From contig NZ_CP114039.1 in assembly GCF_026965535.1 (NCBI RefSeq), forward strand, positions 5,642,001-5,706,000: a DNA stretch of 64,000 bases, given 5' to 3'. This stretch comes from Corallococcus sp. NCRR. GTDB taxonomy: Bacteria > Myxococcota > Myxococcia > Myxococcales > Myxococcaceae. Below the pieces are notes generated by a model. It did no database searches. It had not been told where the DNA came from and was given only the letters and a program-made list of their open reading frames with translations. The translations under genes and the position numbers were made by a program. Within the stretch, counting starts at the first letter, position 1. Each line of letters begins with the position of its first letter. This document shows, in pieces, positions 5,614-31,889 of this stretch.

Positions 5614-6273
5614 TCAGCGCTCCGGTTCCCCTCCGGACTTCGGCGGGGAACCGGGCGGGGGCGCGGGCAGGTATCCGCCTGCGGCCATGCGCTTCGCGGA
5701 CCGTTCGTACATGGCCGGTGAGAGGCCCTGCACGCCGGTGCCGTCAATCCACCGGTTGTAGAAGTTGAAGAGGGCGCAGACGGAGATGGCGTCGTAGACG
5801 GCCTCGTCCGACCAGCCGGCCGCCTTCAGGCGATTCACGTCCTCGCGGCGCACGTCTCCGGGCGCGTCGTTGAGTTGGTCCACGAAGGCGAACAACGCCT
5901 TCTCGGCCTCTGGGATGGGGGCCGTCTTCACATTGTCCAGCACCGCCTGGACGTGCTGCGTGCTGCCCAGCAATTCCGCCGCGACCGCGGCGTGGGAGCC
6001 CGTTCAAAATACGCAGGCGTTGCGCCGCGACGTGTACGCGGCGATGAGCTCCCGCAGCCCGGCCGACAGCGGGGACGGGCCGCTCATCACCTCGTGGGTG
6101 AAGGCGGACAGCGCGTCCGTCATGCGCGGCTTGAACGCGAACAGGTGCCAGATGCCCGGCGGCGTCATGCCCCCGGCCCGCGCCATGGCGATCATCTTCC
6201 CGTAGTGCCCGTCGGACTCGTGCGACTCCACGTCGGGCAGGTACATGTTTTCCGGAGCGGGGGACTTCGGCAT
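5614..6273 (-). CDS. AhpD-like (carboxymuconolactone decarboxylase family) selenoprotein, UGA read as Sec90
   Basis: 219 residues if the in-frame TGA at 6006-6004 is read through. The frame before and after the TGA is the same, and both halves belong to one AhpD-like alkylhydroperoxidase. The AhpD active site is E-x11-C-x-x-C-x3-H; here it is Glu75, Cys87-Val-Phe-Sec90 and His94, so UGA stands exactly at the second redox Cys. A hairpin with a GGUC apical loop follows the UGA at SECIS distance (listed separately). AhpD-like CxxU selenoproteins are a known bacterial class. The start ATG (6273) follows AGGGAAG. The C-terminal half continues as a normal helical CMD domain (ALFNFYNRWIDGTG). The gene lies 38 nt after an alpha/beta hydrolase and corA. 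The alternative is a Cys-to-stop mutation. Confidence 0.82.
5978..6006 (-). promoter_or_regulatory. Putative bacterial SECIS element with its UGA codon
   Basis: On the minus strand, the UGA (6006-6004) is followed by 12 nt and then GCCGC-GGTC-GCGGC (5991-5978). One further C-G pair (5992/5977) makes a 6-bp stem under a 4-nt GGUC loop. The loop GG lies 17-18 nt after the UGA, inside the range I recall for bacterial SECIS elements. E. coli fdhF also has GGUC in its loop. The stem lies in coding sequence (His-Ala-Ala-Val-Ala-Ala), so coincidence at this GC content is possible. Confidence 0.65.
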
Positions 6274-6311
6274 CGCGCACTTCCCTGGCAAAAGGACGGG
6301 GACGCCGTCCA

Positions 6312-7097
6312 TCAGGCCAGCGACGCGAGGAAGCTGTCCAGCACCGAGTTGAACGCCTCCGGCTGTTCCTGGTTGGGCAGGTGCGCCGCGCCGGGGATGA
6401 CCTCCAGCCGCGCGCCCTGCACCAGGTCCGCCATCTGCTTCGCCTTCGCCAGCGGCGTCACGGCGTCGTGCTCACCCACGACAATCAGCGCGGGCCCCGC
6501 GTAGCGCGCGAGCAGGTCCTTGCTGTCCAGCCGCAGCGCCATGCCCCGCTGCGCGGCGGCGATGGACTCCGGCGACACGGACAGCCCCAGCTTCGTCACC
6601 TCGCGGCCCACCGGTGAGTCCGGCCCCGCGTGGACCAGCTTGGGCACCAGCCCCTGGACGACGGACGCCGTGCCTTCCTTCAGCGCCTGCTGCGCGGTGG
6701 CCTCGCGCTTGTCCTTGCCAGCGGCGTCGTCCGCGGTGCACTGCGTGTCGGAGAGCACCAGGCCGCGCACCCGGCCCGGATCCTCGCGCAGGAGCGCCAG
6801 GGCCGCGTAGCCGCCCATGGACACGCCGCCCACCACCGCCGTGTCGAGGTTCAGCGCGTCCAGCAGCGCGAGCGCGTCCTGCGCCAGCTTGCGCATCTCC
6901 GTGGGGCCTTCACCCAGCCGGCTCTGCCCGAAGCCGCGCAGGTCCGGCACGAGGAAGCGGTAGCGCCCGGACAGCGCGGCCACCTGCCGGTCGAACGCGG
7001 AGCCATCCAGCGGGAAGGCGTGCATGAGCAGCACCGGCAATCCCTGGCCCACGTCCCGGTAGTGCAGCGCGACCCCATCCACGGCGACCGTCAGCAT
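6312..7097 (-). CDS. Alpha/beta-fold hydrolase
   Basis: 261 residues of the alpha/beta hydrolase fold with a complete triad: nucleophile elbow GVSMGG (Ser about 93), acid in VVGEHDAVTP and His in GAAHLPNQEQP. The oxyanion strand reads LLMHAFPLDGSAF. It resembles the 3-oxoadipate enol-lactonase group of hydrolases, but the substrate cannot be read from sequence. The ATG at 7097 has GAGGAGG upstream. It is the middle gene of corA - hydrolase - AhpD-like selenoprotein. Carboxymuconolactone-decarboxylase-like proteins and enol-lactonase-like hydrolases often neighbour each other, which fits a shared catabolic or detoxification role (inference). Confidence 0.88.
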   Translation of the reverse strand: MLTVAVDGVALHYRDVGQGLPVLLMHAFPLDGSAFDRQVAALSGRYRFLVPDLRGFGQSRLGEGPTEMRKLAQDALALLDALNLDTAVVGGVSMGGYAALALLREDPGRVRGLVLSDTQCTADDAAGKDKREATAQQALKEGTASVVQGLVPKLVHAGPDSPVGREVTKLGLSVSPESIAAAQRGMALRLDSKDLLARYAGPALIVVGEHDAVTPLAKAKQMADLVQGARLEVIPGAAHLPNQEQPEAFNSVLDSFLASLA

Positions 7098-7132
7098 GCG
7101 TGCCTCCTCGCGGCCCGTCGCAGGGGACGGCG

Positions 7133-8074
7133 TCAGATCCACTTCTTGTACTTGAACCAGCCGACGAGCCCCAGGGGGAAGCCCACCATGGTCACCCACA
7201 TGGCGGTGTACCAGCCTCCTCCCGTCAACTGTTCGAAGTTCTGCCCGAAGAACCCCACGATGAAGGACAGGGGCAGGAAGAGGGTGGCGAAGATGGTGAG
7301 CTGCTTGCTGATGTCGTTGGTGCGCTGGGCCACCATGGACAGGTAGCCGTCCATCACGTTGCCCACCACGTCGCGGCTGGCGTCGATCTGCTCGTAGAGC
7401 CGCACCAGGTGATCATAGACGTCGCGGAAGTACAGCGTCGTCTTCTCCTGGATTTGCGGGATGCCCCGGCGCGACAGCATGCCCACCACGTCCCGCTGCG
7501 GGGACAGCACGCGGCGCAGCGTCACCAGCGCGCGCTTGAGCTGGAAGATGCGCTGCAGGTGCTCCGGATCCGGATCGGCGAAGATGGCGTCCTCCAGGTC
7601 GTCCAGCCGGTCGCCGAAGTCGTCCATGATGGGGAACTGCGCGTCCACGAGCGCGTCCGCGAGCAGGTAGAGGATGACGTCCACGCCCCGGCCCAGCGTA
7701 CCCGCGGGGTCGTCCTTCACGCGCCGCAGGATGGCGTCGTGGCCCGGCAGGCGCAGTGCGTGCACACTGATGAGCCAGTCCTGCGCGAGGAAGTAGTGCT
7801 GCTCGTGCAGCGTGAGCTCCGTGACGTCCGAGCCGCAGCTGAAGCCCTGCATCACGATGAACTGGTGGTGTGGGTATTCCTCCAGCTTGGGCCGCTGGTC
7901 CAGGTGCAGGCAGTCCTCCACGGCCAGGCGGTGCAGTTGGAAGCGCTCGGCCAGTCGGCCCATCACCTCCGCGTCCGGCTCCAGGACGTCGATCCACTTG
8001 GGCCCCGGCCTGTCGAGCAGTTCTTCACCCCCCGAGACCACCCTGCCGTCTTCCCACAGACAGACCTGGATCAT
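7133..8074 (-). CDS. corA: CorA-family divalent cation transporter
   Basis: 313 residues. A large soluble domain with long helices (about 1-245) is followed by two C-terminal membrane helices (LTIFATLFLPLSFIVGFFG and WYTAMWVTMVGFPLGLVGWF) and a basic tail, the CorA layout. The pore signature, normally GMN, reads GQN in VGFFGQNFEQL, so ion preference may differ from classical Mg2+/Co2+ CorA. The ATG at 8074 follows GGGGAG; the open frame extends further upstream, but conserved sequence begins here. It is the first gene of a three-gene minus-strand unit and diverges from the 8163 gene across 88 nt. Confidence 0.88.
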   Translation of the reverse strand: MIQVCLWEDGRVVSGGEELLDRPGPKWIDVLEPDAEVMGRLAERFQLHRLAVEDCLHLDQRPKLEEYPHHQFIVMQGFSCGSDVTELTLHEQHYFLAQDWLISVHALRLPGHDAILRRVKDDPAGTLGRGVDVILYLLADALVDAQFPIMDDFGDRLDDLEDAIFADPDPEHLQRIFQLKRALVTLRRVLSPQRDVVGMLSRRGIPQIQEKTTLYFRDVYDHLVRLYEQIDASRDVVGNVMDGYLSMVAQRTNDISKQLTIFATLFLPLSFIVGFFGQNFEQLTGGGWYTAMWVTMVGFPLGLVGWFKYKKWI

Positions 8075-8162
8075 TTCCGTGGACTCCCCGGCCCACCTCT
8101 CGGGCCCGGGACGCTTGCTAGAACTCCCCGGACGCGATGTCGAGCGGTAGAGTGGGGGCAAC

Positions 8163-9305
8163 GTGTCCGCTGCCGCCGAGAATCCACCGCCGGCCTCCCT
8201 GACCCCGAGGCTCGAACAAATCCTCCAGTCGCTGCCCGACCGCGCCTTCGCCGCGCGGCTGCGAGCGGTGTATCTCGCCGCGGCCCAGGCCATCTCCCGG
8301 CTGAGCGACCTGGACCTGGTGAAGTACGAGACGCCCGTCGTCGACGCCAGCCCCGACCTGTCGCTCTGGGAGGAGATGGCGCCCGTCATCCGCGACACGG
8401 TGATGGACGTCAACGCGCTGCTCAACGTCATCCGGGAGCAGTTCCCCGGCACGCCGCCGCCGGCCGCGTCCGGCAAGGGCCCCGGGGACGTGCCCGCCAT
8501 GCTCCAGGAGGGCATGGCCCGGCTGGCCCAGAGCATCACCCAGCTGGGTGAGGCCATGCGCAACCCGTCCGTGGTGAGCGACCGCTGGCAGCTGTTGGCG
8601 GAAATCCAACGCTTCCGGTCCGACTACCGCGAACAGATGAGCCAGCTCGTCTTCGAGTCCGCGAGCACCTTCGGCGAGGTGTCCCGCGCCCAGGTGGTGC
8701 CCGGCTACGAGGCGGAGGTGAAGGCGGCCGTCACGGTGCGCGCCATCACGTCCGACCTGTCGCGCATCGTCACGGCGCGGCTCAACAAGGTGCGCGACGC
8801 GAAGCCGGAGGAGGTGCTGTGGAACGCGCAGCAGCTCCAGACGGAGCTGGACGCCTTCGGCCGCACCGCCGCGTACCGGAACCTGCGCGCGCAGGACAAG
8901 CGCCACATCGTGGAGGCCCGCGCGGAGATTGGCGCGCTCGCACTCGAGTCCGCCCCCGAGCAGGCGCGGCTGCTGACGGTGACCGAAGGGCTGGATGAGC
9001 TGGTGCGGAGCCTGTCCGCGGTGAACCAGCGCCAGCTGCTCATCCTCCACGACCGCGAGGTGTGGGCCGCGTGCGGCGTGCGGCTGGAGCGCGCGCTGAT
9101 GCAGTCGAAGAAGGATCCGGTCGCGTCCGCGAAGGCGCTGGCGGAGGCCGCGGCCAGCGCGCAGTCGCTCTATGGCCGGGACCCCACCATGGACGCGTTC
9201 CTGCGCAAGGCGCGCAAGCTGAAGCTCGCCACGCTCACGGGGCCGGAGCTGCTCTCCACCATCGAGTCCTTCCAGTCCCAGCTCGCGCAACTGGACGTGA
9301 TGTGA
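8163..9305 (+). CDS. Uncharacterised, mostly helical protein
   Basis: 380 residues from a GTG at 8163. The protein is almost entirely helical and Ala/Leu/Glu/Arg-rich, with no signal peptide, no membrane segment and no motif I recognise. A Pro/Gly-rich linker lies at about 97-112 (TPPPAASGKGPGDVP). Its stop overlaps the start of the HAD phosphatase gene by the GTGA arrangement, implying translational coupling and a shared transcript with the phosphatase and the methyltransferase. It begins 88 nt from corA on the opposite strand. Function unknown; a cytoplasmic myxobacterial-specific protein is the most I can infer. Confidence 0.75.
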   Translation: MSAAAENPPPASLTPRLEQILQSLPDRAFAARLRAVYLAAAQAISRLSDLDLVKYETPVVDASPDLSLWEEMAPVIRDTVMDVNALLNVIREQFPGTPPPAASGKGPGDVPAMLQEGMARLAQSITQLGEAMRNPSVVSDRWQLLAEIQRFRSDYREQMSQLVFESASTFGEVSRAQVVPGYEAEVKAAVTVRAITSDLSRIVTARLNKVRDAKPEEVLWNAQQLQTELDAFGRTAAYRNLRAQDKRHIVEARAEIGALALESAPEQARLLTVTEGLDELVRSLSAVNQRQLLILHDREVWAACGVRLERALMQSKKDPVASAKALAEAAASAQSLYGRDPTMDAFLRKARKLKLATLTGPELLSTIESFQSQLAQLDVM

Positions 9306-28477: not shown

Positions 28478-30559
28478 ATGGCCCGTGAGTTCCCCCTCGA
28501 GCGCTACCGCAACATCGGCATCATGGCGCACATCGATGCCGGCAAGACGACCACCACCGAGCGGATCCTGTTCTACACAGGCGCCATCCACAAGATGGGC
28601 GAGGTGCACGAAGGCACCACCACCACGGACTGGATGGTGCAGGAGCGCGAGCGCGGCATCACCATCACCTCCGCGGCCATCAGCGCCTTCTGGGAGCGGA
28701 TGGGCCAGCGCTACCGCGTGAACATCATCGACACGCCGGGGCACGTGGACTTCACCATCGAGGTGGAGCGCTCGCTGCGCGTGCTCGACGGCGCCATCGC
28801 CGTGTTCGACGCGGTGAACGGTGTCGAGCCGCAGTCGGAGACGGTGTGGCGCCAGGCGGACCGCTACAAGGTCCCGCGCATCTGCTTCATCAACAAGATG
28901 GACCGCGTGGGCGCGGACTTCGAGATGTCCGTCGGCACCATCAAGGAGAAGCTGGGCGCGCGTCCCGTGCGCATGCAGCTGCCCCTGGGCGCCGAGGACA
29001 AGCACAAGGGCGTCATCGACCTGGTCCGCATGAAGGCGCTGGTGTTCCAGGACGCGGAGCAGGGCAGCCGCTTCGAGGTCGTGGACATCCCGGAGGAGTA
29101 CCGCGACGCCGCGGAGGCCGCGCGCGGGGAGCTGCTGGAGGCCGCCGCCGAGCAGGACGACGCGCTCACGGAGAAGTTCCTCAACGGCGACGAGCTCACC
29201 GAGGACGAGGTTCGCGGCGCCATCCGCAAGGGCTGCGTGGGGCTGAAGCTGTTCCCGGTGTTCTGCGGCTCGGCGTTCCGCCACAAGGGCGTGCAGCCGC
29301 TCCTGGACGCAGTGGTGGACTACCTGCCCAGCCCGCTGGAAGTCCCGCCGATCCACGGCAAGACGCCCAAGGGTGAGGACGCCATCCGCGAGACGCGCGA
29401 CGACGCGCCCTTCAGCGCGCTGGCGTTCAAGATCATGAACGACCCGTCCTTCTCCTCGCAGACGCTGACGTTCCTGCGCGTCTACTCGGGGAAGCTGGAG
29501 GCGGGCACGGCGGTGTGGAACTCCGTGAAGGGCAAGCGCGAGCGCGTCAGCCGGCTCGTGCAGATGCGCGCGGACAAGAAGGATGAACTGACGGAGTGCT
29601 ACGCCGGCGATATCTGCGCGGTGGTGGGCCTGAAGCTGGCCACGACGGGCGACACGCTCTGTGACGACAAGCAGCAGATCATCCTGGAGCGGATGGAGTT
29701 TCCGGAGCCCGTCATCGACATCGCCATCGAGCCGAAGTCGACCGCGGATCAGGACAAGATCATCCAGGCCCTGCAGCGGCTGGCCATGGAGGACCCGTCC
29801 TTCCGCGTGCGCTCCAACGAGGAGACGGGCCAGACGCTCATCGCCGGAATGGGCGAACTGCACCTGGAAATCATCGTCGACCGGCTCCTGCGCGAGTTCA
29901 AGGTGGACGCGAACATCGGCAAGCCGCAGGTGGCCTACCGCGAGACGGTGACCACGACGAAGGAGGCGGAAGGCAAGTACATCCGCCAGGCGGGCGGCAA
30001 GGGGCAGTACGGCCACATCAACCTGCGCGTGTCCCCGAACGAGCCCGGCAAGGGCTTCGAGTTCGTCAGCACCATCACCGGCGGCGCCGTGTCCAAGGAG
30101 TTCGTGGACGCCGCGCGCGACGGCGCGAAGGAGGCCATGCAGAACGGCCCCGTCGCCGGCTACCCCATGGTGGACGTGAAGGTGGAGGCCTACGACGGCT
30201 CCATGCACGACGTGGACTCGTCGGAAATGGCCTTCAAGATCGCCGGCTCCATGGCCTTCAAGGACGCGGTCCGCGCGGCGAACCCCGTCCTGCTGGAGCC
30301 CATCATGGCCACGGAGGTCGTCACCCCGGAGGCCGCCATGGGCGACGTCATCGGTGACCTGAACGGCCGGCGCGGGAAGATCCTGGGCATGACCCCCCGG
30401 CCTGGCGGCGTGCAGGCCATCCAGGCGGAGGTGCCCCTGGCCGCCATGTTCGGGTACTCGACCGACCTGCGGAGCAAGAGCCAGGGAAGGGCGACCTACA
30501 CCATGCAGTTCAAGCACTACGCACCGGCGCCGAAGTCAGCGCTCAACCCGAGCTACTGA
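28478..30559 (+). CDS. fusA: Elongation factor G
   Basis: 693-residue translational GTPase that drives tRNA-mRNA translocation. G1 is AHIDAGKT (17-24), the switch I region [17 protein letters not shown]3 DTPGHVDF and G4 NKMD; domains II-V follow, ending with the [19 protein letters not shown] loop of domain V. Sequence and length are standard for EF-G rather than a Tet(M)- or LepA-type factor. The ATG at 28478 follows GGAAGGA. It is located between rpsG and tuf as in most str operons. Confidence 0.97.

Positions 30560-30698: not shown

Positions 30699-31889
<1,191 letters not shown>

Follow-up and report, generated by a model that had tools for sequence, protein, structure and literature searches.

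The window analysed here is a stretch of 64,000 nucleotides of the Corallococcus sp. NCRR genome, and its minus strand carries a predicted AhpD-like selenoprotein gene preceded by a gene for an alpha/beta hydrolase (table 1). Translated from 6273 to 5614, the first of these reads as a single frame (M...CVF-TGA-TGSH...ER-stop) whose sole internal stop is the TGA at 6006-6004, codon 90. The initial annotation had described this in-frame TGA with AhpD-like protein on both sides of it, and the reading stands, as does the spacing it gave for the active-site residues. Glu75, Cys87, codon 90 and His94 match the pattern E-x11-C-x-x-[C/U]-x3-H, and the TGA occupies the exact place of the second Cys in E-x11-C-x-x-C-x3-H. 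Conservation of the hydrolase in the more distant genus starts near residue 34-35, so its start may lie near 7097. The two genes are possibly co-transcribed. A CorA-like transporter gene (7133-8563) lies next to the hydrolase and is kept at the same loci.

Table 1. Features of the AhpD-like selenoprotein locus, in window coordinates
Feature	Position	Strand	Remarks
AhpD-like selenoprotein gene (predicted)	5614..6273	minus	219 codons plus TGA stop (5616-5614); ATG at 6273-6271
In-frame TGA, predicted selenocysteine codon (residue 90)	6004..6006	minus	TGA common to relatives at codon 90
Cys87 codon, partner of predicted Sec90 in C-x-x-U	6013..6015	minus	Invariant in 30-row alignment
Glu75 codon, acidic residue of AhpD proton relay	6049..6051	minus	Invariant in 30-row alignment; relay as in the available text of PMC3141380
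His94 codon, histidine of AhpD motif	5992..5994	minus	Invariant in 30-row alignment
Shine-Dalgarno-like AGGGAAG, 5' of ATG	6280..6286	minus	By sequence reading, without a score
Bacterial SECIS-type hairpin	5977..5992	minus	Conserved codons 94-99; covariation in 111 rows
Alpha/beta hydrolase, PcaD-like, below PcaD cut-off	6312..7199	minus	Directly upstream of the selenoprotein gene, 38-nt gap

For all protein queries, the TGA of codon 90 was taken as selenocysteine (Sec) and entered as C. The protein scores 110.9 bits against the NCBIfam model TIGR01926 'peroxidase-related enzyme' (cut-off 81.8) and 36.1 bits against Pfam CMD (cut-off 23). AlphaFold2 predicts an all-helical protein (pLDDT 89.9), with the active-site motif on a two-helix hairpin made of helices 71-84 and 88-102. 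The top PDB structure matches of the model are the AhpD-like proteins 6k40, 2prr, 3c1l, 2pfx and 2oyo, which are again the top five in a sequence-profile search; the debrominase Bmp8 is found among both the fold and the profile matches. The best structural match, 6K40, is judged from the titles to be the AhpD-like DR1765 of Deinococcus radiodurans, a Cys enzyme with 28% identity to the window protein. Loss of DR_1765 renders D. radiodurans more sensitive to H2O2, and both Cys residues of its CxxC matter, as described in the available text of the study (PMC8945050). The relay of Mycobacterium tuberculosis AhpD consists, in the available text, of Glu118, Cys130, His132, Cys133 and His137 (PMC3141380). 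Four of these (Glu118, Cys130, Cys133 and His137) correspond to Glu75, Cys87, predicted Sec90 and His94 of the window protein, whereas Phe89 stands at the position of His132 and the second Cys of AhpD is matched by the predicted Sec. Whole-chain similarity between M. tuberculosis AhpD and the window model is weak (best E 0.31).

Among 96 genomes of the family Myxococcaceae, 62 match the protein, and the DNA was read for the 51 strongest match rows (at least 51.7 bits) and for 19 weaker ones. TGA stands at codon 90 in 49 of the 51 strongest rows, which come from 49 different genomes; 40 of these TGA rows are 57-100% identical to the query and nine are 31-40% identical. All 40 rows at 57-100% identity keep the TGA with conserved flanks, and no random frame disruption at codon 90 was seen among the 51 strongest family rows, so that the comparison with close homologues proposed in the initial annotation came out in favour of a selenoprotein. 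The two remaining strong rows are one with Cys (L061) and one fragment that lacks the site (L065), and all 19 weaker rows read have Cys and are distant paralogues. Within the genus, nine comparisons gave dN/dS values of 0.23-0.38 before the TGA and 0.11-0.33 after it, indicating that both parts are under purifying selection. A search of the phylum (195 genomes, E up to 1e-10) returned 55 matching genomes, the 49 of the family and six outside it, the latter known by their scores only (best 94.8 bits). One genome, G003, holds the Sec gene together with the Cys paralogue L061 (41% identity) and the C-terminal fragment L065 (about 50% identity); duplication or gene transfer is possible as the origin of these copies.

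The host genome, one contig of 9.79 Mb, contains the machinery for Sec insertion whose presence had been set as a check on the claim: tRNA-Sec at 70.5 bits (cut-off 47; anticodon TCA according to ARAGORN; one clear copy), and selA (567.8 bits), selB (328.3 bits) and selD (388 bits), all three over their curated cut-offs. A second tRNA-Sec match of 47.6 bits, against the same cut-off of 47, was not accepted as tRNA-Sec. In 14 control genomes the searches for tRNA-Sec, selB and selD returned matches in 14 of 14, with scores above cut-off in five, two and two genomes, and selA matched in four and exceeded its cut-off in one. The presence of tRNA-Sec by E-value alone is uninformative, since all 96 family genomes and all 14 controls match, and the tRNA-Sec evidence was limited to scores well above the cut-off and to the ARAGORN anticodon of the genome's own gene. 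With these limits, selA above cut-off and a tRNA-Sec of more than 60 bits occur in 49/49 family genomes with the TGA gene, and none of the eight family genomes without selA above cut-off has the TGA gene among the rows read (Fisher p 0.0024). Of the 88 family genomes that have selA, 39 lack a TGA gene among the rows read; the gene is therefore dispensable. The family genome G009 has a tRNA-Sec of 68.1 bits and no selA match; its assembly is 80% complete, and the absence of selA is probably an assembly gap. Two translation-GTPase genes on the plus strand of the window, at 30735-31841 and 28511-28954, score 178 and 40 bits against the selB model, below its cut-off, and are presumably EF-Tu and EF-G.

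A short hairpin follows the TGA, with the stem halves CGCCGC (5992-5987) and GCGGCG (5982-5977) around the loop GGTC (5986-5983). The 6-bp stem and GGUC loop claimed at the outset are exact: the stem begins at the 12th nucleotide after the TGA and the loop starts after 17 nucleotides. Constraints given for bacterial SECIS elements in the available text of a recent survey are a loop of 3-9 nt, a stem of 4-16 bp, a G in the first two loop positions, a spacing of 16-37 nt and a minimum free energy of -7.5 or lower (PMC13188914); the element lies within them, with its 4-nt loop, 6 bp, 17 nt and -12.4 kcal/mol for the 22-nt hairpin. Folding energy was unconvincing as evidence in this GC-rich genome. 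For its composition, the 39-nt fold is not unusually stable (z = -0.63, with 42 of 200 shuffles as good), and bSECIS-like stems of 6 bp or more follow 313 of the 1,499 TGA triplets of the window (both strands, any frame), which in so GC-rich a window makes a stem alone weak evidence. When the stem of 6 bp or more must also carry a GGTC loop at a distance of 16-19 nt, a single TGA of the 1,499 remains, that of codon 90 itself.

The significance of the hairpin rests on conservation and covariation and not on folding energy. Codons 94-99 are identical at the nucleotide level in 40 of 40 close family rows, which are kin and hence not independent observations, and they have the lowest mean entropy of all six-codon stretches, in a tie with codons 95-100. 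In the same rows, 25 other conserved four-fold codons have a mean entropy of 0.95 bits and a minimum of 0.17. Covariation was examined in 111 Sec rows (49 from the family and 62 from the contig scan described below; 85 distinct), 13 Myxococcaceae contig rows having been left out as their contigs match in length family genomes already counted. The rows are related, and the shuffle counts that follow are not probabilities. Stem pairs form in 98.0% of cells, compared with 91.3% in shuffles (0/500 as high), and 43 cells are changed on both sides against 11.5 in shuffles (0/500 as high). The covariation score is 0.239 vs 0.115 in shuffles (0/500 as high), with 0.103 for the best slid version. Changes on both sides occur in five of seven pairs, where shuffles give 2.2 (1/500 as high); the control slid by +3 has four pairs with double changes, in 16 cells. 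Three of the covarying pairs (columns 15-30, 18-27 and 21-24) fall at third codon positions, and in the codons observed their changes leave the amino acid as it is, so that they cannot be put down to the protein sequence. Of the 85 distinct rows, 54 close the loop with G-C and 27 with A-U, and the second loop position is an invariant G. With its silent-site constraint and covariation, the hairpin is well suited to studying which features of a SECIS loop SelB requires. All six stem pairs also form, with other letters, in two of 25 Cys rows (L151 and L170), and such a stem is thus not exclusive to TGA genes; the 25 include 19 distant paralogues and make a poor control, and the two stems are possibly SECIS remnants.

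Relatives beyond the family were sought in a genome_contigs scan, in which the 80 of 520 relatives most like the query were kept. Codon 90 is TGA in 75 of these best 80 and Cys in five. Two search patterns were used, and one of them includes a Cys codon and favours Cys matches, so the excess of TGA was not produced by the patterns. The closest named relative among the matches listed is Corallococcus sp. AS-1-6, whose protein is 97% identical. By their record labels, the best 80 of 520 belong to Myxococcota, Acidobacteriota, Planctomycetota and Gemmatimonadota, with single metagenome-assembled genomes (MAGs) of Chloroflexi and Cyanobacteria, and MAG labels may err. The five Cys orthologues among the 80 (L136, L151, L161, L170 and L177) are all from Acidobacteriaceae. 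A quick tree, built without bootstrap from 100 of the 135 rows prepared, places them in one clade (SH-aLRT 100) nested within Sec rows, and the branches above it have supports of 97, 89 and 87; L061 and L071 have long branches and are placed unsurely. SelA was compared for all five Cys loci and for 19 of the 75 TGA loci: it exceeds the cut-off in 19/19 TGA assemblies vs 0/5 assemblies with the Cys orthologue (Fisher p 2.4e-5). The genomes behind the Acidobacteriota and other contigs are mostly MAGs of unstated completeness, and the absence of SelA could partly be a gap. Reversion from Sec to Cys upon loss of the machinery is the simplest reading of the Acidobacteriaceae orthologues. As Sec or Cys at codon 90 tracks SelA in 24 of the 24 assemblies tested, the gene is a good case for studying such reversion.

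Decoding of codon 90 as selenocysteine is strongly supported on computational grounds that extend from the frame, motif, machinery and conservation to RNA covariation, the Cys found where SelA is missing, and the fold. We regard it as almost certain that the gene encodes a complete AhpD-like enzyme (CMD superfamily, TIGR01926) in which UGA at codon 90 is read as Sec, and residue 90 of the protein would then be Sec. In the proposed scheme, SelA and SelD would produce Sec-tRNA(UCA), SelB would bind the GGUC-loop hairpin 17 nt 3' of the UGA, and the ribosome would insert Sec. The residue would sit on the active-site helix where the AhpD C-x-x-C pair has its second Cys, with Cys87, Glu75 and His94 close by; the catalytic role of each of these residues is presumptive. 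The protein would most likely act as a thiol/selenol redox enzyme that cycles via a Cys87-Sec90 selenenylsulfide and either reduces peroxides or hands electrons to a peroxidase. By analogy with AhpD-like enzymes, it would most likely be a peroxide- or disulfide-reducing selenoenzyme working through the Cys87-Sec90 bond. If it is a selenoprotein, a part in redox defence appears quite probable, a role in peroxide and thiol chemistry that is read from Cys homologues of at most 28% identity.

The alternative that survives best, though it is unlikely, concerns function: the selenoprotein might do its main work in a specific pathway alongside the PcaD-like hydrolase and not in peroxide reduction. 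In two genera, all 30 genomes that carry the gene have the hydrolase next to it in the same orientation, the top models of the hydrolase are PcaD and PcaD-PcaC fusions that join PcaD-like and CMD domains, and Bmp8, as noted above, is among the matches of the selenoprotein. However, the CorA-like gene is kept as well, so the neighbourhood may simply reflect synteny, the sequence around the gene in rows of other genera showed no such hydrolase, and the hydrolase scores far under the cut-offs (139.8 bits vs 255.85 for PcaD; 145.4 vs 390 for the PcaDC fusion). The pair may accordingly be a lineage-specific partnership or synteny. According to the available text of PMC3141380, members of the gamma-CMD family do not have the CxxC relay of AhpD, and a PcaC-like role is therefore unlikely. 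PcaC/PcaD was set aside as the main reading, given the low scores, the intact AhpD relay and the CorA-like gene kept at the same loci. A wider version is equally doubtful, namely that the gene represents a selenoenzyme subfamily of its own, found mainly in soil bacteria (Myxococcota, Acidobacteriota, Planctomycetota and Gemmatimonadota by record labels) that is more than the Sec form of a generic peroxidase. Its myxobacterial PcaD-like hydrolase would belong to a dedicated pathway, its SECIS loop would have the form N1-G[G/U]-N2 with a covarying closing pair, and gene and SECIS would have spread jointly between phyla.

Against our preferred reading of a Sec-containing redox enzyme, it might also be argued that a suppressor or near-cognate tRNA inserts Trp or Cys at the UGA and that no selenium is involved. 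Cys seems to be tolerated at codon 90, to judge from the five Acidobacteriaceae orthologues, but these come from assemblies without SelA above cut-off, the hairpin shows the silent-site conservation and the covariation of a SECIS, the genome has the full Sec machinery, and the same gene terminates with TGA, so UGA is not simply reassigned; ordinary readthrough is very improbable. Least credible of all is a true stop, giving a nonsense pseudogene or two short genes: a standard ORF listing does return two ORFs (6312-6004 and 5973-5614), but the TGA is kept in nearly all of the strongest family rows and best contig loci, across several phyla by label, selection is purifying before and after it, the active-site motif spans it, and the downstream ORF would begin at a TTG, codon 101, without Cys87 and His94. 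The gene is neither a pseudogene nor two genes.

AhpD-like selenoproteins with CxxU are known from other bacteria, as the initial annotation had stated. The family (COG2128) was described from the Sargasso Sea in 2005 (PMC1088965) and is treated in reviews and surveys (PMC9312934, PMC1794560, PMC2398784 and, most recently, PMC13188914, with the model TIGR01926), all cited here from their available text. TIGR01926 and the CxxU motif are common to the Sargasso family and the window protein, and tie the latter to the family with no closeness within it implied; a predicted bacterial SECIS was reported for a Sargasso member, and one is predicted for the window gene. The members described in the available texts are from marine metagenomes and, in one case, from Alkaliphilus, with no Myxococcaceae named, and the main texts of PMC13188914, PMC1794560 and PMC9312934 contain no instance of 'Myxococc'. 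No title in the literature searched, which covered few subscription papers, reports an AhpD-like selenoprotein for Myxococcaceae, for other myxobacteria or for Acidobacteria. The family is known, and its myxobacterial member seems to be unreported in that literature; with it the Myxococcaceae gain a selenoprotein gene, present in 49 of the 96 family genomes examined. The window protein stays below the cut-off of every (seleno)protein model in NCBIfam, and automatic annotation may consequently miss the gene. With NF041238 (AhpD_rel_CFYUT, alkylhydroperoxidase-related (seleno)protein) it scores 52.1 bits vs a cut-off of 175, over positions 181-334 of 357 only, and is not a member; with NF053654 (YciW-related (seleno)protein) it scores 28.7 bits vs 310.

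A formate dehydrogenase-like gene elsewhere in this genome (C1:1950317-1953139, L094) is likely to encode a second selenoprotein. Its in-frame TGA, at L094:1921, lies in the context RI-U-H, and a hairpin loop that opens with GGUC follows 18 nt downstream. The gene scores 174.6 bits, where the cut-off of the Fdh-alpha model is 666.25; another formate dehydrogenase-like gene of the genome is above that cut-off and has no internal stop.
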